DNA of 34,149 nucleotides, taken from positions 1 to 34,149 of IMG/VR virus record IMGVR_UViG_3300042879_006179, one strand, 5' to 3'. Within the stretch, counting starts at the first letter, position 1, and each line of letters opens with the position of its first letter. Both the position numbers and the translations under genes were made by a program. The stretch comes from a virus. The notes under the pieces were generated by a model. It saw nothing but the letters and a program-made list of their open reading frames with translations. It was not told where the DNA came from and searched no databases. This document shows positions 1,377-29,539 of the stretch, piece after piece.

Positions 1377-3206
1377 ATGCAAAAAAGACCAGAAACGGGA
1401 ATTAAATATTTTAGGGATACTTCAATTAATCCGATTCAAAGCCAAGCAGAAGGCGACGAAGACGTTTTTACTTTTTCGTGGTCATCTGAATATCCCGTAG
1501 ATATGTACTTTTATAAAGAGATTTTGTCTCATGATGAAGGCTGCATGAATCTAGAACGATTAGCGGGAATGAATCTGCTTTGGAACCATGATCGAAATAT
1601 CGTTCTGGGTAAAATCCAGCGGGTGTGGGTTGAAAACAAAAAAGCTTACTGTGAAGCAAGATGGAGCAAAAAATCTAGTATTGCTGAATACAGGCAAGAT
1701 GTGACCGATGGAATTGTTACTAATGCTTCTTTTTTGTATTCTGTGGAAGAATACGAAGAAATAGAAGAAATAGGGAAAGAAGATTGTATTTTTCTTGGCC
1801 TAAGATGGACTCCTTATGAAATATCCTTAGTTAGTGTTCCAGCGGATCCGACTGTGGGAGTTGGTAGATCCGTTTCAGAGAGTATAATAAAAGAAAACCC
1901 AAGAGTAATCATGGAAAAAACTGCTTTAGATATCCGGAATGAAGAGTTACAGCGAACGAGAGAAATCTCGGCAATGGGGGAAAAGTTTAGAATGCCTGAA
2001 TTGGCTAGGGGTTTGATCGAGGATGGCACGGAATTAAGTATTGCCAGAAAAACTTTTTTAGACAACATGGAGAATTATCAAAAACCAGTGGCAAAAGCGA
2101 TCAATACCTCTTTAGATTTATCGGACAAAGAACAGCGTCAATACTCGTTAGTTCGAGCAATTAATGCTGTGGCTTTTGGCATGACTAAAGATGCTGGTTT
2201 TGAGATGGAATGCAGCAACGAAATTGCTAAAAAATTAGGTAGGCCGACTAACGGGTTTTTTATGCCGGTGCGAGACCTGCGCGTTAAGGCTAATCTGCAG
2301 CAACGCGCAACCTATGCCGTCGGTGCTAACGCTACTGGTGGGTTCACCGTGCAAACTGACTTACTAGAGCAAGAATTTATCGACCTCCTCCGAAATAGGG
2401 CCATGGTGATGCAGTTGGGCGCATCCATGATCTCTGGCTTGGTCGGAAATGTCGATATACCTGGTCAGGCAACGGCGGCCACCTCTTACTGGATTGGGGA
2501 AGGAAATGATTTGACTCAATCGGAGGGAACTTTTAAACAGATTCCTTTGCGAATGAAAACGGTTGGGGCTTTATCTCGATATACTCGCACAATGATGATG
2601 CAATCGAGTATTGATATTGAGTCCTTTATCAGAAATGATTTTGCGCGGATTATTGCTTTAGCTATTGATACGGCGGCTATTTCTGGCACTGGATTGAGTA
2701 ATCAGCCAAGAGGGATTTTAAATACCACTGGAGTCGGTTCGATCGCTTTAGGCGCAGCCGGCGGACAGCCAACGTGGGGCAGTATTGTCGGTTTAATTCG
2801 AGAAATTGAAATTGATAATGCTAATCTGGGGGGGACGGCTTGGTTAACCAATCCGCAAGTGATGTCAAAGTTGATGACCACTCCTATTCAGTCAGGCGGA
2901 CTCGAAGGGAATTTTTTGTTAAAAGAACCTGGAAATACTCTTTGCGGATATCCTTTTTATGTCACTAATCAAATTCCTGCTAATCTAATTAAAAGCACTG
3001 GCACAAATTTAAGTGCTTTAATTTTGGGGAATTGGCCACAACTATTGATTGGAGAATGGGGTGTTTTTGAGGTGTTGGCAAATCCTTATTCTTCTAATGT
3101 TTTCCCGTCGGGAAGTGTTGAAGTGCGTTGTATGCAATCAATTGACATTAACATCCGTAACCCTGAATCTTTTGCTGTTATTACCGACATGATTACTACT
3201 CTTTAA
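1377..3206 (+). CDS. Fused HK97-type prohead protease and major capsid protein
   Basis: One uninterrupted 609-residue frame joins two proteins that are usually separate. Residues about 15-165 match the S78/HK97 prohead protease: LLWNHD with His71, a serine in VTNASFLYSV (Ser118), and the family signature PYEISLVSVPADP at 146-158. Residues about 170-300 are charged and helical, like a scaffold or delta domain. From about 310 the HK97 capsid fold follows, with YAVGANATGGF, the E-loop/P-domain stretch and NQPRGILNT. The start has a good ribosome site (AGGAG, seven bases upstream). In known phages the protease cleaves the delta domain and then itself during head maturation, so the product is presumably cut near residue 300. 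I see no start signal forcing separate capsid translation. Confidence 0.9.
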   Translation: MQKRPETGIKYFRDTSINPIQSQAEGDEDVFTFSWSSEYPVDMYFYKEILSHDEGCMNLERLAGMNLLWNHDRNIVLGKIQRVWVENKKAYCEARWSKKSSIAEYRQDVTDGIVTNASFLYSVEEYEEIEEIGKEDCIFLGLRWTPYEISLVSVPADPTVGVGRSVSESIIKENPRVIMEKTALDIRNEELQRTREISAMGEKFRMPELARGLIEDGTELSIARKTFLDNMENYQKPVAKAINTSLDLSDKEQRQYSLVRAINAVAFGMTKDAGFEMECSNEIAKKLGRPTNGFFMPVRDLRVKANLQQRATYAVGANATGGFTVQTDLLEQEFIDLLRNRAMVMQLGASMISGLVGNVDIPGQATAATSYWIGEGNDLTQSEGTFKQIPLRMKTVGALSRYTRTMMMQSSIDIESFIRNDFARIIALAIDTAAISGTGLSNQPRGILNTTGVGSIALGAAGGQPTWGSIVGLIREIEIDNANLGGTAWLTNPQVMSKLMTTPIQSGGLEGNFLLKEPGNTLCGYPFYVTNQIPANLIKSTGTNLSALILGNWPQLLIGEWGVFEVLANPYSSNVFPSGSVEVRCMQSIDINIRNPESFAVITDMITTL

Positions 3207-6349: not shown

Positions 6350-9300
6350 ATGGTGGCACGGGATTATTCTGGGTTTCAGGCGGTTGTTAATTCGGTGGAG
6401 AAACTACGGGAAACTGTCAATATTGAAGCCGATAAACAGTTGTCTGTTTTTCGAGTAATCCGTGATACTCAAAATTCTCAGTTAAGAATTTTGGAGCGCA
6501 TGGTAGAAAGCCTAAGAAGCCGCTCTCAAACCCGCAATAATTTTGGATTTCCTGATCGGCTAGAATTTAAAAATGTCAGGCTAGAAACTAGATTTGTCAG
6601 TTTGTCTGCTCGATCGGTGATTGTCGAGACTAAGGGGGGATTAAGCAGGGAAAAACAGAGTAAGACAGATTCTCAGCAATTAGCTAAGGCTTTGGGGTCT
6701 GAGATTAAAAAAATTAAAGTTGGGGGTGGGTTAGGAAATCCTTTGCAGATTTTTGGGGCTGGGATTTTATTCCAATTTGGGGCGCAATTTGCTAAAGGGA
6801 TCGAAAAGTCTTTAAATAAACAATTTGATTTTAGTTTTAAAGGGGTCGGACGAGTTGCGGGAACTGCAATTACAGATCCTAAACAAGCTGCTAAAGATGC
6901 CTTTAAAATGCGTCGTGATTCAGTTTTGCGACGACGCAGCGTGGCAATGGTTAAAGATATTAAGTTTCAAAAAGGCACAGAAATTGACAAGGAATATCAA
7001 CGATATGATGAGGAATTAGAAACTATTCGTCAACAAACTAGGGATACTGTTCAAAGTAAACAAGCGCAAAGAGAAGCAGAAGAAAATCACAAAAACAAAT
7101 TAGCGGAAATTAATAAAAAATATGCAGAATTTGAAACTAATATTGAGGGTTCAACTAAACCGATTGTTTTTGCTGTAGGTGGTTTTGGGGGAACTGGAGG
7201 CAAAGGCGGAATCCAAGTTAAACGAGAACTGGAAAAAACACTTGGGAGAAAGACTGCTCACATTGAAATTGTCGACAATCCTGAAAGTGATTATGATTAT
7301 AGCAAAGTTGTTGAATCTATTCCTGATTTTATAAAAAAGAATCCTCAATTTGCTGAAGATATAGAAAAACTTAAAAAACGAAATTTTAATTTTGACAGGG
7401 TTGACAAAGAAGACGGTGGTGTTTCTTATTTTACAGAAGAAATTGTAAGTTATTTTTCCCAAAAAGCTCAAGCAGAAAACCGTTTAAAAGATTTTACAAA
7501 AGGATATAATCCTGATGCCGTAAAATTAGCGGCTAAAATTGCTGATGCGCGTAGAAAAAATCCTAACGCTCCAATTGATGTAGTTGGATATTCTGGCGGT
7601 GGGTTTGCAGTAGAAGAAGCTTTGGCTATTCTCAAAGAAATGGGAATTACTGATATTCAGGGAACTGGAGCAGGAACGCCGAATCTTGGGATTGGATACA
7701 AGAAAAACCGCAATTTTAAGCGAGTAATGGGGACTACTGACAGAACAGGCGAGTATTATAAATTTATTGAAGAAGATCAAGCAACTGCATTAAATTTTCG
7801 GGGGTTTAGTGATACCACAGAACATCAATTCCCTGAATATTTGGCTAACCCCGCAACAATTAAATCACTATCTAAACCTTTAGGAGCCAAAGCTCTTAAA
7901 GGCGTTGTTGATCCTAGAATTTTAAAATTAGTAAAATTACAAGAAGATTTAAAAGGAGCTAGTACCTTTGAGGGAGATAAAGCAGCGGTTTTTGTTAAAT
8001 TTATTAAAGAAATAACAGAAATCAATAAATATATTGACGAGTTTGTTGAAGAGCTTCCTGATGATGTAGCAAGCATTAAAGAAGAACTTAAAAAACTTCT
8101 TGAAAAATTTAAAGATTCTGCGGATGGCAGCAAGAAAAAAGCAGAAAAAGACACAAAACCTGATGACCAGTCTGATCAAGTTTCGACTAAGCAGGATATT
8201 GTAGAAACACCTGACAAAGTACAACAAGAGACAAAACCAAATGAATTTGATCAAGTTCCGACTCGGACGGATACTCCGGCAAGACCTGACGGAGGCGAAA
8301 ATCAGTCTCCCGATCGCAATCCTGACATTGTTCCTGTGGGACCTGTGGAACTTCCTCCTAGTGCCGGCAACAATTTGGATATTGAAGCCGATGCGACTAG
8401 AGGAGGAGGAATTACCTCGCTGGCGAGACAATTTGATACTTACCAGCAAACGTTAAGGGAATCTTTAGCCAGGGTTTTAGACGCTGAAAAAGCTCAAACC
8501 GAGATAGAAATTGAGCCGGGCTTTTGGGTTGACGTTGAACAGTTAAATCAAGGGTTCGTCAAACGAACCCAAACTCAATTAATTCTTTTCTGGGAAAAGC
8601 TCCGGGCTAATCTAGGCACAGAAATCAAGCGAACCATAACAGGGCTTTTGGGGACTATTCCGGGTGCAACAATCGGGCGTGGAATAACTGGGGATCCTTT
8701 AGGTGGGTATCTGGGGGGGATAGCCGGGAGACTGGTTGCTGAAACTGGGTTTCAAGATGTTTCTAATTTCCGATCGCTTCAGCAACAAGGAATGTCCCCA
8801 GTTACGGCTAAATTCTGGCAACAATTTGGCAACAATAGAAAGTTTTTACCTAATACGCTTCGTAAAACCGCCGTTGGGTATGTCACGGGGTCGGTGGTTG
8901 GCCGAGGCATTAACGACGTGATGCAAGCCACGGGAGCCAATCAATTGATTGGCGCTTTGATGCCCTCGTGGTTAGAAACGGCAATCGCTGACGGGATTAA
9001 TCGCACTATCAAAACCATAGCCGATCCTAATATCGATTTGGCTATTCCCAATTTACCGCCAGCAGCAAACAAGATTTTATCTGCTCCTTTACACGCCGTG
9101 GGGAAATCTGTGGCAGCCCAAGGCTTTTTGGGTAATGTGGCAACTTCTTTCTTGGACAATCAAACTAAGACCGCGTTAATGCCAGTTCGGGAAGCGTTAA
9201 CGGGCGCTGGTCAAGTTTTGGGTGGGGAGGGTCTGTTAGGGGAGTATTTGGGCGATCGATTTACTGGATTGGGCATCGGAGCGATTCAGGATACTGCTAA

Positions 9301-12300
9301 GGCAAGCGGCCGGGGAGTAGCGGGGATGATTGCGCCAGGGTTGCCGGCTGAGGTGCGAAATTTTATTGCCGATCAGGTGATTAAGCAAGGTGTGCTAGAC
9401 GGCACGGTTAGGGGACAGGTTGCACCATTTTTGGCCGAGCGAGCGGGGAGCGATCTATTTGCCCGTGGAGTAAAAATCCCAATTACTGGAAAAGTTGCTG
9501 GAACAATTAACAAAACCTTGGATAGATACGATCCGTATGCGATCGCTCCTAAGAAATTAACTGATGAGCAAATATTATTAGAGCGAGAAAAGCGTTTCGA
9601 TAAAAAACGTAAAAATGCGATTAATGCTGTTGAGAATTTATTTAATCGTATTGATAAAAGCGTTGATGAAACCACTAAGGCAGTGGTGGGCATTGGTAAT
9701 GGTTTCTTAGGCTTTTTTGATAATATTCGCACTAAAACCTATGACTTTGCCAAGAAAACAGCAGGGTTGACTGACAATCCAGTAACTTTAATTGATCAAT
9801 ACATTGTTTACCTTGATCAATTGGTTCAGGATGCCCAAAAACAGGCACAAGAAACAGTTAAAGGAATTATTCCTGATTACAAAAATCTAACGATTCCAGA
9901 GCGAAAAAAAGCAATTGGAAGCTACAAGGAAAAAGTAGCCACAGAAGTTAAAAAGTTTAGAATGGCGATTGAGGACGGGGAAAGTCAAATCGCTTTAGAA
10001 ATTGGTGAGAACATTTTAGCGTTAGTAGAGTCAACCCGCAAAGTTTACAAGGATTTACTGGAAGCTGTGCCGTCTGATCTTAGTGGCACTAAATCAATTG
10101 AGGCGAATCAAAGATATTTAACTTCGGTTCAAACCGAAGTTTTAAAAGGACAGCCTAACCTTAAGGGACGGGCTAAAACTGGTTTAATGCAACTGGTTGG
10201 CACGGAAACCAGCGAAGGGTTTATTAAAGGGATTGAAGAAAGATTAAATAAGGTAAGAAATAGCGGAAAAGAGTTAGCAGAATCGGCAATTGAAGGAGCT
10301 AAAAAGCGACTAGGGATTGCTTCGCCGTCTAAAGAATTTGAGAAATTAGGAAAAAATTCAGGAGAGGGGTTTGAGATTGGAGCGGTGGAGTCGCTGAAAG
10401 ATGCGGGTAAAGCTATCCTTGCCGAAATTGAAAAGATTAAAGCAGAAGTTGTCAAAGAATTAAAAGGAATTGTCAAACCTTCAAAATTAGATAAATTTTT
10501 AGCAGGTACTCCAAGCAAAACTTTAACCACTAAAGGTTTAGATGGCGTAATTTATCGATTAGCCAATAGTTTTAATTTAAAACCAGAACATCAAAAGATA
10601 ATAGATAAGCTTGCTCTTTATGGACGCACTCAAAAGCCTAGTATTATTAGAATGCACGGCAGCGATCTAAAACATAAAATAGGAGATTCTGTCGAATTTT
10701 CTGGCGCAACCAGCTTTACTGGTAAAGTTGATGAAGTTAAAAAGACAGGGTCTCTTGGATATTTAAAATTACAACCAGGTGGCTCTCTTTATGAAGTTGT
10801 TAATCCTAAGCGTGGTTTTGATATTCCTTATGATGACAGCCCCTATGCCGACCGATTTGTTGATGAAGACGAAACAATAACATCTGGCAAATATAGAGTC
10901 GTAGGCAAAAAACAAAAGACTATTTCCGTTGATTACGGAGAAAAAGATGGAATTGAAAAACTCAAGGTTACAATCTATCAACTAGAAGAAATTCGTTCCG
11001 AAATTGACAAATCGATTTCTTTGTTAAGCAAGCCAGTTGCTCAGTTAAAGAGTGCTTTTGACAAACTTGGGAAAGACACAATAGAAGGTTTTGTTCAAAG
11101 GGTGCAGGGCGATAAATCTGACGCAATTGATGTTATTGCGGAGTTAGTTGATTCAGTTATTGAAAAAGCTAAAGACGATTTAGAAATTCAGTCACCGTCA
11201 AGGATTTTTGAGGAAATTGGTCAAAGAGTTGTAGAAGGATTTAATCTTGGAGTTCAAGCAATACAAACAGTTATTAGTACTCCAATTGACCAAGCGTTAA
11301 CAGCAGTCGATAATAATTTTTCTGTTTTTATTGATAACGCTCAACAAGGCTTTAATAATTTTATTGCTCAAATTGAACAGCAATTCCCAATTTTTGCGGA
11401 ATTGAAAGATTTAATCTTAGGAATAGCGGCGGGGTTTGTCTTAAATAATATTTTTGAGCTTTTAGTCGGTCAAATTACTGCGTTAGGTGACGCTTCTTTT
11501 GGTGCTGTTTTGGAATTAGAATCAATAAGATTAGCTCTAACTTCGGTGACGGGAAGTGCCGAAGCCGGAGCTAAAGGATTAGCTTTTGTGCGAGAGGAAG
11601 CGCAAAGATTAGGGATTGAATTAAAAACGGCTGAGGAGGCCTATACAGGTTTCTTGGCAGTAACAAGATACACTGTGCTAGAAGGAGAGCAAGCTAATCG
11701 AATATTTAGCGTTTTTCAAGAGACAGCCGCTCGGCGCGGTTTATCCAATGAAGAACAAGGGCGAATGTTTGCGGCTATCAACCAAGCGATGTCTAAACGG
11801 AAATTATCGGCAGAGGAGGTGCGCGGGCAGCTAGGGGAAATTCCGGGGTTAGCTTTTGAATCTACTGTAGCTCGATCGCTTGGAGTTAACCCAGCGCAAT
11901 TAAGCGAGATGATGAGCGATGGATTATTGATGGCTGAGGATATTTTCCCTAAAGTTGCGGCTCTTTATCAGGCAGAAAATACCGCAATTGTAGGAGGAAC
12001 CGAGACAACAGTTCAAGCTTTGACCCGATTCCAAAATGCGATCGTTAATCTTCAAAGAAGTTTTGAGGGGTGGATAGCTCCCGCAAAAACCTTCTTTAAC
12101 TTTTTTGCGGCGGCAATTGAAAAAATCAGCGAAATTATTCCGATTGTCGTTCGCTACCTCGGCATTTTTTCGGCGGCGTTGTTTATTGATTTTGCGAAAA
12201 TATCTATAAATTTAATTAAGTTTTTGTCATCTTTAAAAACTGTACAAGTTGTTTTACAAGGTTTAGCTAAAGTTGCGGTGGCAGCTTTTAAATTTATTTA

Positions 12301-15300
12301 CAAAGAACTGTTAATATTCTTAAAGCAATTTGCTTTACTTACTCTCGCTGTTGATGCTGTCAGCGCGGCTTTTTATATTCTTTCTAACAATGCGTTCCCT
12401 GAGTTGAAAAAAGGTGTTGAGGAAACAACTGAAGAAACTAATCGATTAATAGAAGCTTTGCGAAATTTGGGCAAGGAAACTAAAAATATACCTAGAGATT
12501 TACCTAAAACTGAGGAAGAAATCGTCACTAAGCGCAATTGGAATATTTTCGGGTTTGATACTGGGTTTAATTTAGAGGGAACCAGACAGTTTTTAAACAA
12601 CATTGATAAAACTTTAGGTTTTGAACCTGCGCTAACAACAGTAGGACAGCAAGAGCTTAGTAATTTTCAGGAAAATGCAGCAGGAATACTATCTAATGTA
12701 AATAAGACTCTCACAGAACAATTTAATGTCGAAAAAGTTATTAAAGAAATTCGTGAGCTTGATAAGGAATTAACTCAATCTCGATCTCGACAATTTAATA
12801 TACCTGCGGGGGATAAAAAACGCTATGAGGCGGCAATTAAAGAACAGCAAAAACTTATAGAAGAAAGAGATAAAAAACTAAGTGTCACGGCTAGTTTTGA
12901 AACAGCTTTGCAAAATCAAAAAACTGAAATTGAAAAACAGCTAAAAGAATTAGATGGGCTAGTGGCAAGAAAAGGAATCACGGAAGATGCAGAAAAAGCA
13001 CTGAGAACGCAATTAGAGCAGGGATTAAAAGATATTGATAAGACCTCGACTGCGTTTGACGATTTAATGTCAAATTTGCAAAAAAGCGTTAACGCGCTGA
13101 CCTTGGCTTTGAGAAATCTTAACGAGCAGGCGGCTTATTTTAACGAGACTCTACAGCGCAACGCGACCAATGCCAGAGTCCAGTTTATTCGTCGAGCGAG
13201 AGCTGCCGGAGTAGGAAGTCAGGTTAGGGAATTGGGATTAGAGGAAATTGATCAGAATACCCTTGAATCTCGGATTATTTTTCTGCGTGACCAGTTGGGA
13301 GCCGTGAACGAACTGTTAACTAAACCTGACTTTGCTGATGTGTTGACGGAACTCCGGCAACAGGCAGAGGATATGGGGGTTAACCTTGAAAATACGGCAA
13401 CCATTGATCGGTTAATTAACGAAAATCGATCGCAGCAAGAAACGGCGGTTTTGAATGCTTTAAAAGAACAATTAAGGCTACAAGACGAATTGGGACAGGC
13501 CGAAGAGAATTTAGAGCAAAGTATCTCAAGCACTCGCAGTGCTATCACTGATTTAAATCGATCGGTTGAAGACTATTTTTTTAACTTGAACCAACAAATT
13601 GAAGAGGCACTGGTAGAAACCGATCGCATTCTTAATAAGCTTAAATCTACTGATATTCGGAATAAATTACAGCGCGCCTTAGTTCCGGGGTCGGATACTT
13701 TTGTTAACGGTTTGATTGGGCAAATTCAAGGAATATTCGATCGAGCCAGTGGCATTTTTGAGCAAGTGTTGGGGCAACGGTCAGCCCGAATTAACTTTGC
13801 TGGTGAGCGGCGTGGCTTGCAGTATGAGTTGGAAAATTTCACTCGCAACCTGGGTGGTGCTACCGAGGCTCTAGAGTTATTCCGACAAGGCTTGTTAGGT
13901 GGTCAGCCGTCGGGGGTCGGTAGTCAGCCGTCAGCGTCGGGGCGATTTGCAATTGGTACGGTGGGAGCTACGGGAATAGGAACGGGCGCTCATCTAGATA
14001 TTCGAGGAAAAGACCGGCAAGGAAATCGCTTACCTGAATCTCGCTTACGAGAATTATTGTCTTTAGTCTTTGTCGGAGGCAAGCCGCTAAGTGAGCAGTT
14101 AGACAAAATTACTAGCGGTTACGGACATCGGCGGCCGCCTACCCGTGGAGCTTCGTCTTTTCATCCTGCCCTTGATTTTGGTTTTAGCCCAGGAACTCCT
14201 ATCGAATTTACTGGCCAAGCTGTTTCAGCCCGAACTTTTTTTGATAAAGGCGGAGGCGGCAACGTGGTAGAAATTATTTTGCCTAATGGTGAAAAATTAC
14301 AGTTGCTTCACCTTGATTCAGTGGCTAATCTGGGAACCATTCAACGCGGGCGGGTAAATACTCCGGGGAATACTCAGCGCCGAGGGATGCCCAATGTTCC
14401 TTTTGCTTCTTTGATTGAAGGAGCGGCTAAACAATACGGCCTTGACCCTTTGCTTTTTGCCGCTTTGATTAAAAAAGAATCGGGTTTTAGGCAAGAAAAA
14501 AGCCCTGGACAGATTTTAACGAGTTCTGCTGGCGCGGTGGGAATAGCCCAATTAAAGCGTAGTACAGCTAGGGAATTAGGGGTAAATCCTGACAAAGTAG
14601 CTGAGAATTTAATCGGCGGAGCTAAATATCTTGCTAGAATGCTTGAGCGATTTGGGGGAAATATCGAGTTAGCCTTATCAGCTTACAAAGCGGGTCCAGG
14701 TAATGTTAGAAATAATCAAATGGCTCGCGGCACGGTTCAAGATGTCGGAATAGTTATGCAGTATTATCGGGAATTTCAGCAAGCGAGTCGGGTCGTTACT
14801 GCTAATCAACCTGCCGTCCCCAATCCCCCAATCCCCAACGTTAATAATGCCGCTGCTGAAGAATTAACTAATCGATTAATTCAAATCAAGGAAAATCAAG
14901 TTAATTTAGGCGATGCCAGTTTGCGTCAAGACATCGAGGCTTTCTTAATTGAACTGCAGCAAACAAAAGATACTATTTTAAGACAGATGGGCGATTCAAT
15001 CCGAGAAAATATTGAAGCGGTAACTAATGCTCAAAATAGTCTGCAAGACATTCGACAGCGATATAGTCCCCAAACTCAAAGCGCGCAATTAGAAACCGAA
15101 TTGCGCGGGGTAGAAAATGAATTCCGAGGATTAGATAACCAATTGTTTGAGCAGGAAAGGGGATTAACTGACAATATTCAGGGATTAGATCTCCTTCTTA
15201 ATCAGATGAAAGAAGTATTGGTAATTTTAACCCAATCTGATGATCAGCTAAGTAAAGAAAGTGCTAGTTTTCTAATGGGATTAATCGGGCGGATTGAACA

Positions 15301-16819
15301 GGATAAGGCTACTTATTCGGGGATGCGTACCGAAATTCAGCAGTTAAGAGGTCAATTAAAAGAAGGCAAACTGGACGCTGAAAACTTTGTCAAAGCGCAG
15401 GCTAAACTGAGAACTATTCAAGCTGATTTAGAACGAATTAGCACGGAATTGTCTATCGCTCAAGAGCAAAATAATCTTGAGCAGGAACGAGCGATCGCCT
15501 TATTGCAATCTCGGCAACAATTAGAATTAGACTTATTACAAATTGCTCAAGATTTTGAGGGTGAGGATAGAGACAAACGATTAACTTTAGCTAGAGAACA
15601 GGCACGATTAAGAGAAAGAGAAATTGAGTATCAATTCCAATCAAAAACCTTAAGTCAGGAAACTGAATTAATTAGTCAACGGTTAGCGATCGCTCAAAAT
15701 TTGAGTAATTTAGGCAAAATCAACGAACTGGAATTATTGCAATCCCAGAAACAATTAGAACAGGAAATCCTCGAAATTAAAAAGCAATACCCCGATCTTG
15801 CTGACCAAGAATTAAGAATTAACTTAGCCAAAGAACAGGCGCGGTTAAGAGAGATAGGAATCGAAAATAATTACAACAATCAACGCTGGCAACGGCAGCA
15901 AGAATTGTTCGATATGGAAAGTCGAATAACAGAAGCGCGGGCGACAAGATTGGAAAGATCCGGCCAACCTTTTGAAGCGGCGGCCATGCGCGAGGAATTA
16001 GCTTTTCGGGCAGAATTATTGCGCTACGAACAGGAAATAGAGGCTATTCGACAACGCTACACCGATCCAGCCGATGAACAAACAAAAAACGAATTAATCA
16101 GAAACGCAGGAATTTTGCTGGGATTGAATCTGGAACAAATTGATCAGCAATTTAAAGATTTAGGGGAAACAATCAGAGACACTGCCTCTGGTGCTTTTGC
16201 CACTTTTCTAGAAGATACCCTGACTGGAACCAAGTCGATCGGCGATGCTTTCCTTGATATGGCCCAATCAATTCTAAAATCCTTAGCTCAAATTGCGGCA
16301 CGGATGGCGATCGGGGGACTATTTCGATTGTTGAAGTTGCCGATTCCTGGGTTTGCTGATGGGGGGACGGTTCCCAATTTTGCAGAAGGAGATACGGTCA
16401 AATCCGCAAAAAATGCAAATTTGCCTTTTAAAGGAATTCAGGAGGCTTTAAAAAAAGAAGGACCGCGAGGAGTATTAGCCGTATTTACCCCAGGGGAAGA
16501 AATTCTGAGTCTTCGGACTGGAGAGGCTCAACGATATCAACGCTTAAAGACTCAATTAGGCAAAAATCCTTTAGCTAAAATTGGTAATTTTGCTGATGGG
16601 GGTACAATCGGAATTAATGAAAGTTTATTGGCTGGATTAAATTATGGAATGCCTACTGCTGACCGCTTGCCTAATAATTTTGGGCAAACTACACAAATAT
16701 CAAATTACGGAGGCGATCGATCGGTCACAGTCAACGTGACGGCTCCCAACCCCTCGGCCTTTAACGCTTCCGAGCGACAAATTGGCCGGACAATTGCCGA
16801 ATATTTATCAAGGGTGTGA
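6350..16819 (+). CDS. Giant tape measure protein with lipase-like, M23-like and lytic transglycosylase domains
   Basis: The 3489-residue product has the tape measure hallmarks. A TMP domain lies at about 1730-1830 (TSVTGSAEAGAKGLAF onward), and hydrophobic helices at about 1935-2012 (GIFSAALFIDFAKISINLI). Long charged coiled coils follow, as do repeated 'SPSK.FE..G....EGF..G' blocks near 1325 and 1615. The usual end is present, with two ADGGT loops and FTPGEEILSLRTGEA. Three enzyme-like modules are embedded. An alpha/beta-hydrolase-like region at about 268-510 carries GYSGG (Ser415) and a possible His492. An M23-like domain at about 2580-2660 has FHPALDFG (His2605) and LLHLDS. A transglycosylase SLT domain at about 2690-2790 has the catalytic Glu2710 in KKESGF. 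The length predicts a tail of roughly half a micrometre at about 0.15 nm per residue. GGAG lies before the start. Confidence 0.92.
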   Translation: MVARDYSGFQAVVNSVEKLRETVNIEADKQLSVFRVIRDTQNSQLRILERMVESLRSRSQTRNNFGFPDRLEFKNVRLETRFVSLSARSVIVETKGGLSREKQSKTDSQQLAKALGSEIKKIKVGGGLGNPLQIFGAGILFQFGAQFAKGIEKSLNKQFDFSFKGVGRVAGTAITDPKQAAKDAFKMRRDSVLRRRSVAMVKDIKFQKGTEIDKEYQRYDEELETIRQQTRDTVQSKQAQREAEENHKNKLAEINKKYAEFETNIEGSTKPIVFAVGGFGGTGGKGGIQVKRELEKTLGRKTAHIEIVDNPESDYDYSKVVESIPDFIKKNPQFAEDIEKLKKRNFNFDRVDKEDGGVSYFTEEIVSYFSQKAQAENRLKDFTKGYNPDAVKLAAKIADARRKNPNAPIDVVGYSGGGFAVEEALAILKEMGITDIQGTGAGTPNLGIGYKKNRNFKRVMGTTDRTGEYYKFIEEDQATALNFRGFSDTTEHQFPEYLANPATIKSLSKPLGAKALKGVVDPRILKLVKLQEDLKGASTFEGDKAAVFVKFIKEITEINKYIDEFVEELPDDVASIKEELKKLLEKFKDSADGSKKKAEKDTKPDDQSDQVSTKQDIVETPDKVQQETKPNEFDQVPTRTDTPARPDGGENQSPDRNPDIVPVGPVELPPSAGNNLDIEADATRGGGITSLARQFDTYQQTLRESLARVLDAEKAQTEIEIEPGFWVDVEQLNQGFVKRTQTQLILFWEKLRANLGTEIKRTITGLLGTIPGATIGRGITGDPLGGYLGGIAGRLVAETGFQDVSNFRSLQQQGMSPVTAKFWQQFGNNRKFLPNTLRKTAVGYVTGSVVGRGINDVMQATGANQLIGALMPSWLETAIADGINRTIKTIADPNIDLAIPNLPPAANKILSAPLHAVGKSVAAQGFLGNVATSFLDNQTKTALMPVREALTGAGQVLGGEGLLGEYLGDRFTGLGIGAIQDTAKASGRGVAGMIAPGLPAEVRNFIADQVIKQGVLDGTVRGQVAPFLAERAGSDLFARGVKIPITGKVAGTINKTLDRYDPYAIAPKKLTDEQILLEREKRFDKKRKNAINAVENLFNRIDKSVDETTKAVVGIGNGFLGFFDNIRTKTYDFAKKTAGLTDNPVTLIDQYIVYLDQLVQDAQKQAQETVKGIIPDYKNLTIPERKKAIGSYKEKVATEVKKFRMAIEDGESQIALEIGENILALVESTRKVYKDLLEAVPSDLSGTKSIEANQRYLTSVQTEVLKGQPNLKGRAKTGLMQLVGTETSEGFIKGIEERLNKVRNSGKELAESAIEGAKKRLGIASPSKEFEKLGKNSGEGFEIGAVESLKDAGKAILAEIEKIKAEVVKELKGIVKPSKLDKFLAGTPSKTLTTKGLDGVIYRLANSFNLKPEHQKIIDKLALYGRTQKPSIIRMHGSDLKHKIGDSVEFSGATSFTGKVDEVKKTGSLGYLKLQPGGSLYEVVNPKRGFDIPYDDSPYADRFVDEDETITSGKYRVVGKKQKTISVDYGEKDGIEKLKVTIYQLEEIRSEIDKSISLLSKPVAQLKSAFDKLGKDTIEGFVQRVQGDKSDAIDVIAELVDSVIEKAKDDLEIQSPSRIFEEIGQRVVEGFNLGVQAIQTVISTPIDQALTAVDNNFSVFIDNAQQGFNNFIAQIEQQFPIFAELKDLILGIAAGFVLNNIFELLVGQITALGDASFGAVLELESIRLALTSVTGSAEAGAKGLAFVREEAQRLGIELKTAEEAYTGFLAVTRYTVLEGEQANRIFSVFQETAARRGLSNEEQGRMFAAINQAMSKRKLSAEEVRGQLGEIPGLAFESTVARSLGVNPAQLSEMMSDGLLMAEDIFPKVAALYQAENTAIVGGTETTVQALTRFQNAIVNLQRSFEGWIAPAKTFFNFFAAAIEKISEIIPIVVRYLGIFSAALFIDFAKISINLIKFLSSLKTVQVVLQGLAKVAVAAFKFIYKELLIFLKQFALLTLAVDAVSAAFYILSNNAFPELKKGVEETTEETNRLIEALRNLGKETKNIPRDLPKTEEEIVTKRNWNIFGFDTGFNLEGTRQFLNNIDKTLGFEPALTTVGQQELSNFQENAAGILSNVNKTLTEQFNVEKVIKEIRELDKELTQSRSRQFNIPAGDKKRYEAAIKEQQKLIEERDKKLSVTASFETALQNQKTEIEKQLKELDGLVARKGITEDAEKALRTQLEQGLKDIDKTSTAFDDLMSNLQKSVNALTLALRNLNEQAAYFNETLQRNATNARVQFIRRARAAGVGSQVRELGLEEIDQNTLESRIIFLRDQLGAVNELLTKPDFADVLTELRQQAEDMGVNLENTATIDRLINENRSQQETAVLNALKEQLRLQDELGQAEENLEQSISSTRSAITDLNRSVEDYFFNLNQQIEEALVETDRILNKLKSTDIRNKLQRALVPGSDTFVNGLIGQIQGIFDRASGIFEQVLGQRSARINFAGERRGLQYELENFTRNLGGATEALELFRQGLLGGQPSGVGSQPSASGRFAIGTVGATGIGTGAHLDIRGKDRQGNRLPESRLRELLSLVFVGGKPLSEQLDKITSGYGHRRPPTRGASSFHPALDFGFSPGTPIEFTGQAVSARTFFDKGGGGNVVEIILPNGEKLQLLHLDSVANLGTIQRGRVNTPGNTQRRGMPNVPFASLIEGAAKQYGLDPLLFAALIKKESGFRQEKSPGQILTSSAGAVGIAQLKRSTARELGVNPDKVAENLIGGAKYLARMLERFGGNIELALSAYKAGPGNVRNNQMARGTVQDVGIVMQYYREFQQASRVVTANQPAVPNPPIPNVNNAAAEELTNRLIQIKENQVNLGDASLRQDIEAFLIELQQTKDTILRQMGDSIRENIEAVTNAQNSLQDIRQRYSPQTQSAQLETELRGVENEFRGLDNQLFEQERGLTDNIQGLDLLLNQMKEVLVILTQSDDQLSKESASFLMGLIGRIEQDKATYSGMRTEIQQLRGQLKEGKLDAENFVKAQAKLRTIQADLERISTELSIAQEQNNLEQERAIALLQSRQQLELDLLQIAQDFEGEDRDKRLTLAREQARLREREIEYQFQSKTLSQETELISQRLAIAQNLSNLGKINELELLQSQKQLEQEILEIKKQYPDLADQELRINLAKEQARLREIGIENNYNNQRWQRQQELFDMESRITEARATRLERSGQPFEAAAMREELAFRAELLRYEQEIEAIRQRYTDPADEQTKNELIRNAGILLGLNLEQIDQQFKDLGETIRDTASGAFATFLEDTLTGTKSIGDAFLDMAQSILKSLAQIAARMAIGGLFRLLKLPIPGFADGGTVPNFAEGDTVKSAKNANLPFKGIQEALKKEGPRGVLAVFTPGEEILSLRTGEAQRYQRLKTQLGKNPLAKIGNFADGGTIGINESLLAGLNYGMPTADRLPNNFGQTTQISNYGGDRSVTVNVTAPNPSAFNASERQIGRTIAEYLSRV

Positions 16820-25593: not shown

Positions 25594-25847
25594 TCAGCTT
25601 TCCTTACGAAATCAATCTTATAATTCGATCGCTTTCTGAAGCGCGAGAGGTGGATGAAAATAATGTTTTTGGCGATTTAACGTCAATTTATTGCTTAGGC
25701 AAGCGGAATAAAGAGCTATTTTTTCGACTTGTTTGGCGTGAATACGGCAATGAATTGGCTAAATACAAGAGATCATTTTCCGTCGCCGATGTTGAGCATG
25801 AAAGCTATGAGGGGCAAAACATCACCATCTTGAGGGTGAAGCCATGA
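25590..25847 (+). CDS. Hypothetical early protein
   Basis: I start at the ATG overlapping the previous stop (ATGA), giving 85 residues (MISFPYEINLIIRSL). An upstream in-frame ATG at 25578 inside the previous gene would add four residues and is less likely. It is a mixed alpha/beta, acidic protein of a compact size common in phage early operons. No recognised motif or membrane segment is present. Its end overlaps the next gene by four bases. The function is unknown. Confidence 0.5.
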   Translation: MISFPYEINLIIRSLSEAREVDENNVFGDLTSIYCLGKRNKELFFRLVWREYGNELAKYKRSFSVADVEHESYEGQNITILRVKP

Positions 25848-27334
25848 CTATTCAGCTAACCCTTTTTGATTACCAAGAGCTTGATTGTGAGACTCGTATA
25901 GTAGTCCAGCAAAAAACCGAAGAGATCAAAGTTCTGATGCGTCGGACAGCCCAAGACGTTTTTGATATTGGGCAGAAATTGAGCGATATCAAGGCACGGT
26001 TAGGCCATGGTCATTTTATGAATTGGCTAAAAGCCGAATTCGAATGGTCTGAACGGACTGCTGGTAATTTCATGCGCGTGTATCAATCTTTTAAATTTGC
26101 AAATATTGCGGATTTAAATTTCTCCCAAACTGCTCTTTATGTATTGGCTGCTGCCCCAGAAGATGCTCGGCTTGAAGCGATCAAGCTTGCCCAAGAAAAA
26201 GCGATTACTTTGGTGGAAGCCAAAGAAATCGCAGAAAAACATAAAACCAAATCTGATCCTAACTCATGCTTACCCAACTCGATCTCTGTAGCGGCTACGG
26301 GTGCGGCTTTCCCCTTGCCGGACTGCGAAGCGGAAAAATCCGACTCATTGGCCTTGCGGAACACGACAAAGACATCATCGAAGTTCTCGAACAACGATTT
26401 CCCGATGCCGAACAGTGTGGAGACATCCACACATTTAAGTGGAGCAAGTGGGACAAGCGACCCGACCTCATCACCTGCTCCCCTCCCTGCCAACCCTTCA
26501 GCTTACAGGGAGACAGAAAAGGATCAACCGACGAGCGAGACTGCATCCCCGGAATCCTTAAAATCCTCGACGTTCTCAAGCCCCGATACTTCGTTCTTGA
26601 AAATGTTCCCGGAATCCTTAGCTGTCCCTTCCGACCCGGAGATCAGCCCGGTACTTATTTCGGAAAACTCCTCACTCGATTGGACCAAAGCGGGTTTGAT
26701 GCTGAATGGCAATGTGTCTCCTCGGCAGACTTTGGAGCGCCCTTCAAACGGGAAAGATTATTATTTCTTGCAGTCTCCCGGGGCGCTGTCCAGCCCCAAT
26801 GGTACGAAGCAGCCTGGGCAGACCAAATTGGAAGCGTGGCTGAAAGAAGTCGGAGCGTTATCCCAGAAACAAGTATTAAACCCGGAAATCTTGGAGAAAG
26901 CCTTCGCACTGCCCTTGGGGTGGACAGATCCCTGGGAATTGCGTCCGGGACACGAACTGTCCGCAACCGTAGGGCAGGACTGGGGAATAGTCTTGATCCA
27001 AGAGTTGCCGGAGCCGCAATCGATCGCATCCTCTGGATCGATGCCAATTACCGAATTTAAGCAGGGCGAAAAAGTTAAAGCCCGCAAAGTACCCGGGCTA
27101 ATCGGGGAAGTGCAATCAGTTATAGGTGAGTACGTTTCTGTGCTGTGGTATAGCGGCGAAATCAGCAATATTTCTGTTAGTGAATTGGAACGATCTGACC
27201 CTGAGTTAAAAACAGGCGATCGGATCAAAATCACCGGCGAAATCACTGGGAAAGTTGGTGAAAATTTGGCTGTAATTCGCTTGGATTGCGGTCAAGTTAT
27301 TGAAATTCCCTGGTCTTTTGTATTACCCCAATAG
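25844..27334 (+). CDS. DUF3102-type protein with long overprinted centre and KOW-like end
   Basis: This is a 496-residue frame. Residues about 15-145 match DUF3102 (TAQDVFDIGQKLSDIKARLGHGHFMNWLKAEFEWSERTA), a DNA-associated family of phages and plasmids. Residues 141-405 share their DNA with the methyltransferase in another frame, starting with a Ser/Pro/Thr-rich low-complexity stretch. The later part (LDWTKAGLMLNGNVS, LQSPGALSS, LNPEILEKAFALPLGWTDP at 345-363) resembles the conserved 'LNP.F.E..MGFP.GWT' region seen in proteins encoded next to Dcm-type enzymes. Residues about 410-496 form two small beta barrels like KOW or SH3 modules. The frame stays open over 265 overlapped codons and continues past the methyltransferase stop, so it is probably real. 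Confidence 0.65.
   Translation: MTIQLTLFDYQELDCETRIVVQQKTEEIKVLMRRTAQDVFDIGQKLSDIKARLGHGHFMNWLKAEFEWSERTAGNFMRVYQSFKFANIADLNFSQTALYVLAAAPEDARLEAIKLAQEKAITLVEAKEIAEKHKTKSDPNSCLPNSISVAATGAAFPLPDCEAEKSDSLALRNTTKTSSKFSNNDFPMPNSVETSTHLSGASGTSDPTSSPAPLPANPSAYRETEKDQPTSETASPESLKSSTFSSPDTSFLKMFPESLAVPSDPEISPVLISENSSLDWTKAGLMLNGNVSPRQTLERPSNGKDYYFLQSPGALSSPNGTKQPGQTKLEAWLKEVGALSQKQVLNPEILEKAFALPLGWTDPWELRPGHELSATVGQDWGIVLIQELPEPQSIASSGSMPITEFKQGEKVKARKVPGLIGEVQSVIGEYVSVLWYSGEISNISVSELERSDPELKTGDRIKITGEITGKVGENLAVIRLDCGQVIEIPWSFVLPQ
26266..27060 (+). CDS. C5-cytosine DNA methyltransferase, nested in another gene
   Basis: This is a complete 264-residue Dcm-type enzyme: motif I DLCSGYGCGFPLAG (6-19), motif IV CSPPCQPFS with catalytic Cys75, motif VI ENVPG (112-116), motif VIII region FGAPFKRERLLFLA (156-169) and motif X LGNSLDPRVAGAAIDRI (239-255). 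The target recognition region between them is short. The whole gene lies inside 25844-27334 in a different frame of the same strand. The local base composition is visibly richer in GC than in neighbouring genes. No strong ribosome site precedes the ATG. It may have a coupled or leaderless start. Likely roles are protecting phage DNA from host restriction or altering early expression. Confidence 0.85.
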   Translation: MLTQLDLCSGYGCGFPLAGLRSGKIRLIGLAEHDKDIIEVLEQRFPDAEQCGDIHTFKWSKWDKRPDLITCSPPCQPFSLQGDRKGSTDERDCIPGILKILDVLKPRYFVLENVPGILSCPFRPGDQPGTYFGKLLTRLDQSGFDAEWQCVSSADFGAPFKRERLLFLAVSRGAVQPQWYEAAWADQIGSVAERSRSVIPETSIKPGNLGESLRTALGVDRSLGIASGTRTVRNRRAGLGNSLDPRVAGAAIDRILWIDANYRI

Positions 27335-27932: not shown

Positions 27933-28278
27933 ACAAATCCCTGAGTTAGTTGTGGGTGATTTGATTTATTTCTGTCAACGGTTGTGGTCAGTAATTGCAA
28001 TTAAGCCAATTGCTGGCTGCACTAAACAAACCTGTTTGACCCTAAAAATAACTCACTTAACTATTAAGCAAAACTTTGATGACTGTGTTTTTGTTCGGTG
28101 TACAGAACAAAAACAAGACCCCCAAAAAATATCGGAATCGGAGGAAAAATACACCAAAAAATATCAAACTGAATGGCTCCAAAAAACCCAAGCAACTTTT
28201 GAAAACTTTGAAACCTTGCAAATGAAACGACGGCGGCATTCATTGAAAAAAAGAGGTCAAAATGACAGCGATTCTTGA
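27922..28278 (+). CDS. Hypothetical protein, beta domain plus basic tail
   Basis: This encodes 118 residues. The N-terminal half (PELVVGDLIYFCQRLWSVIAIKPI) looks like a small beta barrel with several cysteines, similar to the one at 29536. The C-terminal half is a charged helix that ends in a very basic MKRRRHSLKKRGQ tail. The ATG overlaps the previous stop region and the end overlaps the next start by 17 bases. A nucleic-acid-binding role is plausible but no family is recognised. Confidence 0.5.
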   Translation: MVYKQIPELVVGDLIYFCQRLWSVIAIKPIAGCTKQTCLTLKITHLTIKQNFDDCVFVRCTEQKQDPQKISESEEKYTKKYQTEWLQKTQATFENFETLQMKRRRHSLKKRGQNDSDS

Positions 28279-29539
28279 TTGTATTCCAGAAGATGGCATA
28301 GGGGAGACTGCCCTAGCAGTGGCCACTGGCTTAAATCTTTCCGAGCTTCGATCGCAATTAAATATTTTAATTCGGAAACGAGCGATCGAACCCGTTCCCG
28401 ATATGCCCTACCATTACCGTCCTGTTATGGTCCGGGTTCCAAAGCCACAAGAGATTTTAAGTCTCTTAGCAGATCAGAAACTTGAAGCTATCGAGATAGC
28501 GATAGAGCTATATTGCGATTCAATTCAAACTAAAGCCATTTTAAAGCAAATGGCTTTAAAAGGTGAAATTATTCAAAATGGTGATTACTGGGAGCTAAAC
28601 AGTGGAAATGCTCATGTTTCAGATGGAATTGATATTGATTTCCAGCAAATTAGTCTTGATGGTTATGGCAGAATCAATTCAGACGAAATACCCGGGGCAG
28701 TATTGGTCGAAGCGGGCCAGCAAAGCATTGGATCGGGAATTGAAAGCCTTACTGACGACGAAATCCAGCGCCGGCATCATTTAGAACGGAAGGTAGAACG
28801 GAGTTTTTATGATGCTGGTAAAGCACTGGCCGAGCTTCGGGATGCTCGTCTTTATCGCGATCGTTGGCATACTTGGGAGAATTACGTCGCTGAACGATTT
28901 GGTTTTAAGTGGAATTATGCCCACAAACAAATTGTGGCCGCTGAGGTCGTGGATAATTTACTTGAAGCTTACGGAGAAACCTGTACGAATCGTACAGAAA
29001 GTGTCACACCAACTGGCACACTACCCACTGCTGAAACTCAGGTTCGTCCATTGGTTGCTCTCGACCCCGAAGTTCGGGCAACGGTCTGGAAAACTGCCGT
29101 AGATAAAGCTAACGGCAAGGTTCCCACCGAAAAACTCGTGAAGGAAACAGTCAAGGAATTCCTAAATCGAGAGGCCGTTTCCAATCCCTATCGAGTGGGT
29201 CAGATCGTCAGCATTAAAGGAAAAAAAGGCTGGTTTGTAGTTTTTCACATCGGGGAATTTACTTGCACTTGCCGAGACATAACTGGCAACGAAATTATTG
29301 AACGGCACTTTGATCTAAAAGAAATCGTTCTGCCACCAGAACAAAGACAATTTGCCGTAGGCTTACAGGTTCGACTTGAAGAATTGTGGTTAAAAGGCGA
29401 TCGGTTGCCCAGTCAAGTGGATGGCGACACGATTAAAGGTTTAGTTGTGAGCGTCGGTTCCAATGCTTGCGGTTTTTTGACAGATTTTCAAGAGCAACTC
29501 TTACAGCTTGCTGAATTGCAATCCCAGGGGGAACTATGA
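28262..29539 (+). CDS. DNA-binding protein with N-terminal helix-turn-helix and plasmid-type central domain
   Basis: This encodes 425 residues. Residues 1-55 look like a winged-helix (LDCIPEDGIGETALAVATGL, then SELRSQLNILIRK). Residues about 165-235 have the phage/plasmid pattern LERKVERSFYDAGKALAELRDARLYRD, WENYVAERFGFKWNYAHKQIVAAEVV. This DNA-binding core occurs in DUF3102-like and RepA/ParB-associated proteins. The last 120 residues hold two small barrel-like segments (NPYRVGQIVSIKGKKGW). It is the largest early gene here and probably acts in replication control or partition. The specific partner is not shown. Its end overlaps the next start by four bases. Confidence 0.6.
   Translation: MTAILDCIPEDGIGETALAVATGLNLSELRSQLNILIRKRAIEPVPDMPYHYRPVMVRVPKPQEILSLLADQKLEAIEIAIELYCDSIQTKAILKQMALKGEIIQNGDYWELNSGNAHVSDGIDIDFQQISLDGYGRINSDEIPGAVLVEAGQQSIGSGIESLTDDEIQRRHHLERKVERSFYDAGKALAELRDARLYRDRWHTWENYVAERFGFKWNYAHKQIVAAEVVDNLLEAYGETCTNRTESVTPTGTLPTAETQVRPLVALDPEVRATVWKTAVDKANGKVPTEKLVKETVKEFLNREAVSNPYRVGQIVSIKGKKGWFVVFHIGEFTCTCRDITGNEIIERHFDLKEIVLPPEQRQFAVGLQVRLEELWLKGDRLPSQVDGDTIKGLVVSVGSNACGFLTDFQEQLLQLAELQSQGEL

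Follow-up and report, generated by a model that had tools for sequence, protein, structure and literature searches.

The window, by which we mean the whole 34,149-nt stretch of an IMG/VR virus record analysed here, encodes on its + strand what we take, at a probability of about 0.87, to be a C5-methyltransferase that is naturally divided into two subunits, as M.EcoHK31I is, and whose two chains are encoded by overlapping frames of the same DNA. The ORF of the catalytic chain (alpha) lies entirely within the ORF of the second chain (beta) on the same strand, and the beta frame is +1 relative to alpha. From N- to C-terminus, the beta fusion comprises DUF3102, an S/T/P-rich linker, a TRD-like segment with motif IX, and a small-barrel tail. 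An earlier note on this DNA gave both ORFs (496 and 264 residues) at exactly these positions, and the protein signals that it saw in both frames are borne out by Pfam, which finds DUF3102 in the outer frame and a C5 DNA methylase in the inner one. The features are as follows.

25844..27334, + strand: outer ORF, the beta fusion, 496 aa (ORF coordinates, Pfam)
25952..26110, + strand: DUF3102 match, residues 37-89 of the outer ORF (PF11300, E 2.1e-10)
26266..27060, + strand: alpha, C5-methyltransferase catalytic chain with motifs I-VIII and X, 264 aa (PF00145, E 1.4e-30)
26281..26310, + strand: alpha motif I, DLCSGYGCGF
26479..26502, + strand: alpha motif IV, SPPCQPFS, with the catalytic Cys
26596..26613, + strand: alpha motif VI, LENVPG
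26687..26833, + strand: beta TRD-like segment, KAGLMLNGNV ... LQSPGALSSPNGTKQPGQTKLE, outer frame, conserved in plasmids and phages
26734..26760, + strand: alpha motif VIII, GAPFKRERL
26821..26979, + strand: alpha linker, residues 186-238, predicted disordered (pLDDT <50), over the end of the beta TRD-like segment and motif IX
26873..26932, + strand: beta motif IX, VLNPEILEKAFALPLGWTDP, outer frame, with LNP...P invariant in alignment A5
26968..27021, + strand: alpha motif X, RRAGLGNSLDPRVAGAAI
27068..27331, + strand: beta C-terminal small-barrel-like tail, beyond alpha, with substitutions 2/7/12 by beta codon position

The start of alpha is the first possible ATG 3' of an in-frame TAA. The PF11300 match scores 41.4 bits against a curated cut-off of 24.4 and is confined to residues 37-89 of the outer ORF. 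The C-terminal tail has no Pfam match, and its barrel nature is suggested by its sequence. By eye, a 425-aa protein further downstream (28262-29539, + strand) has a helical stretch resembling DUF3102 and perhaps a small barrel; Pfam finds no match in it.

Alpha contains motifs I, IV, VI, and VIII and the class I methyltransferase fold. Its best PDB fold match in Foldseek is M.HhaI (2uz4, E 1.4e-15), and the PDB match spans residues 5-169 only. In the AlphaFold model, pLDDT is mostly about 90 or higher within residues 1-180 and 241-264 and falls below 50 over residues 186-238, which are predicted to be disordered. On the strength of the extent of the PDB match, the predicted disorder, and the identity of the best fold match, alpha has the large domain plus motif X, with a linker in place of a TRD and motif IX. 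The methyltransferase had been described as complete; motifs I, IV, VI, VIII, and X are indeed present, but the enzyme is not complete, because the alpha chain has neither motif IX nor a convincing target recognition domain. Motif IX is found in the other frame.

The conserved block within the outer frame, LNPEILEKAFALPLGWTDP, follows the pattern ...SGxMRNG...LxSPGALS...PGQTKLE...LNPxxLexxxxxPxxWxdP, and its version in phage relatives reads LPTPxA...LNPxWVEWLMGFPxGW. Two kinds of relatives reveal its identity. In one IMG/VR contig (L080), motifs I-VIII and a beta-type IX block are joined in one chain, and the block is co-linear with residues 270-318 of M.HhaI (motifs IX-X), in an alignment that is weak alone (about 6 bits). 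This single-chain methyltransferase (108-1160, - strand) has motifs I-VIII, the beta-type IX, and X all in one frame. In mycobacteriophage Ryadel, two adjacent, partly overlapping genes are both annotated as DNA methyltransferase; one half carries motifs I-VIII, and the +1-frame half, which has its own ATG, carries a TRD-like segment, IX, and X. The Phlei phage likewise has adjacent, partly overlapping halves, each annotated as DNA methyltransferase. From the single chain and the split genes, the outer block is identified at the sequence level as motif IX preceded by a TRD-like segment, which suggests that the TRD resides in beta. The two frames had been read as two unrelated proteins; instead, the conserved middle of the outer frame appears to be the missing motif IX and TRD-like piece of the same methyltransferase. 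Among 28 beta cores, 24, the window's included, match phrog_1008 (DNA methyltransferase), and none of the 28 has a meaningful match in Pfam or NCBIfam. A profile of the beta core finds no PDB chain at E up to 10. Modelled alone, the beta core reaches a pLDDT of 52, too low for a fold search.

The existence of both linkages, in the single chain and in the Ryadel genes, together with a register that is always +1, is also what programmed +1 frameshifting would produce if it joined alpha motifs I-VIII to the outer-frame TRD and motif IX in one chain, with separate translation of beta being incidental. We consider this very unlikely, as motif X stays in alpha's own frame past the putative shift, and the window's beta, which has its own start, is already open and under constraint 5' of alpha. 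In addition, the beta of Ryadel begins at an ATG of its own, and elsewhere unrelated N-terminal domains are joined to beta cores.

The overlap exceeds what the methyltransferase alone would impose. When the methyltransferase protein is kept and its synonymous codons are permuted (5000 trials), the outer frame is open in 7/5000 trials for the window and in 0/5000 for each of three relatives (L002, L004, and L005). Conservation of the outer block in relatives is 5-8 standard deviations above the expectation from methyltransferase conservation alone. By the synonymous null, z is 4.8-8.3 for the TRD/IX segment, and about 0.3-3 for the outer frame over motifs I-VIII, little beyond the methyltransferase shadow. 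Pure base composition was dropped as the cause of the open outer frame, given the permutation result. Antisense coding at the locus was also dropped, having no homology support.

Selection is handed over from one frame to the other along the overlap. Substitutions between homologues by codon position and frame, the check that had been proposed, reveal constraint on both frames, in different segments. Between the window and its relative L028 (89% nucleotide identity), substitutions at the three beta codon positions number 15/7/44 upstream of alpha, 9/31/15 over motifs I-VIII (where the excess falls on alpha third positions), 1/7/10 over the remaining overlap, and 2/7/12 downstream of alpha. In pooled cyanobacterial pairs, alpha-synonymous/beta-nonsynonymous changes stand at 0.135 versus 0.060 for the reverse over motifs I-VIII, and at 0.044 versus 0.106 over TRD/IX (Fisher P=1.5e-4, with L002 common to two of the pairs). 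Alpha-nonsynonymous/beta-synonymous changes are favoured in alpha segment 170-240. In nine independent, non-overlapping phage pairs, the corresponding values are 0.362 versus 0.132 over motifs I-VIII and 0.289 versus 0.425 over TRD/IX (P=2e-20), in alignments whose divergent linkers are possibly partly misaligned. A close phage pair (L042 and L055) exhibits a clean switch, from 1,0,20 to 9,1,0. The constrained frame is thus alpha over motifs I-VIII and beta over the TRD/IX segment.

A complete minimal methyltransferase overlapping an unrelated DUF3102 protein, whose similarity among relatives would be a shadow of methyltransferase conservation and composition, is less probable still. Several other frames, the opposite strand included, are fairly open by composition, and the shadow largely accounts for the outer-frame similarity over motifs I-VIII. 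However, an open outer frame is rare in the synonymous null, the TRD/IX scores are high, and alpha lacks a folded TRD in the AlphaFold model; the handover, with beta as the constrained frame over TRD/IX, directly contradicts such a reading.

The split, two-frame arrangement recurs in relatives. With the outer protein as a tblastn query, the middle third is 35-42% identical in seven cyanobacterial plasmids, where Pfam gives no match, and in 7/7 of them a methyltransferase frame lies over the outer block in the same +1 register. Beta occurs in 20 of 386 cyanobacterial genomes, and every locally re-found one is accompanied by alpha in the same register. The +1 pair is also present in phages of Mycobacterium, Microbacterium, Bacteroides, Synechococcus, Nodularia, and Salmonella. 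A genome-contig scan with a single protein gives four close relatives, a PPGQTKLE pattern scan of IMG/VR gives two loci, neither with an alpha or beta match, and a DNA-level search of phages gives no match. A motif-IX DNA pattern finds at least 80 IMG/VR loci. Among the 81 matches listed, 75 lie in the +1 frame of a spanning alpha ORF, a fraction valid for the WVEW form only, because the pattern selects that form, and one is a clean single chain. Dual coding of this length was rightly taken as genuine in the earlier note, since relatives have both frames open and conserve them at the same +1 offset, but its rarity is not borne out by the 75 of 81 listed matches in that register.

The usual layout in phages has beta inside alpha, whereas the fused beta ORF of the window, like that of some plasmids and genomes of cyanobacteria, reaches beyond alpha. 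The partners of beta differ among relatives: L007 has KilA-N and Dam, L169 has Dam, L167 has a KOW-like start, and L002, L159, L160, and L171 have uncharacterised tails. DUF3102 proteins without a methyltransferase, 46-47% identical, are found in cyanobacterial plasmids (L011 and L012). From these differences and from the independent occurrence of DUF3102, the DUF3102 domain and the barrel-like tail are, as judged by sequence comparison, lineage-specific additions to a conserved beta core. In L007 (2429-4870) and L169 (335-2221), the beta core is in frame with the adenine methyltransferase (Dam), and the product is possibly a joint C5/N6 modification protein. Many phage beta chains (L032-L111, e.g., L035, L044, and L100) contain tandem WPTP...L..V modules of ~40 residues before motif IX, which may be multiple target recognition units. 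The alpha linker in phage pairs is 23-257 residues long where measured.

Homologues with one frame broken and the other intact had been named as evidence against dual coding. One such case occurs, in Sphaerospermopsis NIES-73 (L003/L026), where TGG is changed to TGA at alpha codon 23 and beta is intact; this natural alpha-null looks like local decay, and conservation elsewhere outweighs it. Together with a truncated relative (L027), the nonsense codon could suggest that an earlier split methyltransferase is now in decay and that its two chains, alpha and beta, no longer cooperate, the least probable reading of all, since in the window lineage both frames are kept open, stop-creating changes are nearly absent, and every catalytic motif is intact. 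In particular, the beta ORF is open at full length in L028-L030.

The split enzyme would work as follows. Alpha would fold as the large catalytic domain, with motifs I-VIII for SAM binding and catalysis and with motif X carried on the disordered linker, and beta would provide the small domain, namely the target-recognition segment and motif IX. The two chains would then associate in trans to form a counterpart of a single M.HhaI-like enzyme. The S/T/P-rich linker of beta is the +1 reading of alpha motifs I-VIII. The beta ORF surrounds alpha because beta is fused N-terminally to DUF3102 and C-terminally to the small-barrel tail, and alpha would therefore be made by internal initiation, with both chains translated from one mRNA. 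AGAGGA precedes alpha in plasmid relatives, with AGAGGAAAAATG 5' of alpha in L002, L004, and L006; the window has no clear Shine-Dalgarno sequence 5' of alpha. The fused domains probably bring the enzyme to DNA or to a partner. Expression, complex formation, and specificity of the pair are all deduced here from sequence.

The virus is probably cyanobacterial. Pfam finds no restriction endonuclease in ten window proteins, five of which are neighbours of the locus, and the pair would act as an orphan enzyme that methylates phage DNA, probably as a guard against host restriction. Elsewhere in the window, one ORF (1377-3206, + strand) matches prohead protease S78 (weakly) and a phage capsid family and is likely a protease-capsid fusion, a very long ORF (6350-16819, + strand) encodes 3489 aa, and an OrfB_IS605/Cas12f1-like TNB protein (TnpB-like) lies near the end of the viral contig (32280-33956, + strand).

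The closest known system is M.EcoHK31I (YGGCCR), in which the gene for the small chain sits inside that for the large chain, in another reading frame. The window's second polypeptide likewise lies in an overlapping frame, but the relation is inverted, with alpha inside a beta fusion ORF that bears DUF3102 and the barrel-like tail. In both systems the large chain carries motifs I-VIII and X, and motif IX is on the other chain (PMC3404938). For M.EcoHK31I, the predicted TRD is assigned to the large subunit (PMC3404938), whereas evidence from the window places it in beta. M.AquI (CYCGRG, from a cyanobacterium) is also one C5-methyltransferase divided between two chains after motif VIII, but its small chain holds both IX and X (PMC3404938), whereas motif X of the window is in alpha; the M.AquI layout is similar to that of Ryadel. 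The annotation of phrog_1008 is "DNA methyltransferase" only, with no mention of a subunit or a second frame, and a limited literature search finds no description of a two-frame arrangement in phages. The two-frame split has a precedent in M.EcoHK31I; as far as that search shows, neither a fused beta that surrounds alpha nor the wide occurrence in phages has been described.

More broadly, we would give even odds to the proposal that the frame-overlapped two-chain form is the usual, largely unannotated, one in a large class of phage C5-methyltransferases, in which the +1 recognition chain evolves by tandem modules and, in cyanobacterial elements, by being joined to DNA-associated domains through which the enzyme is retargeted or regulated, and in which the overlapping part of alpha is cut to a disordered linker. 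Long dual coding with measurable selection on both frames is rare, and here each frame would supply part of a single enzyme. The handover of constraint, in which each frame is constrained opposite the linker of the other, makes the locus a clean test case of how overlapping genes share DNA. Beta is a subunit without a Pfam or NCBIfam model, and although it looks essential, it is absent from most annotations because gene callers usually keep alpha alone. Since the +1-frame chain appears to bear the sequence specificity, it is relevant to predicting the methylation targets of phages.
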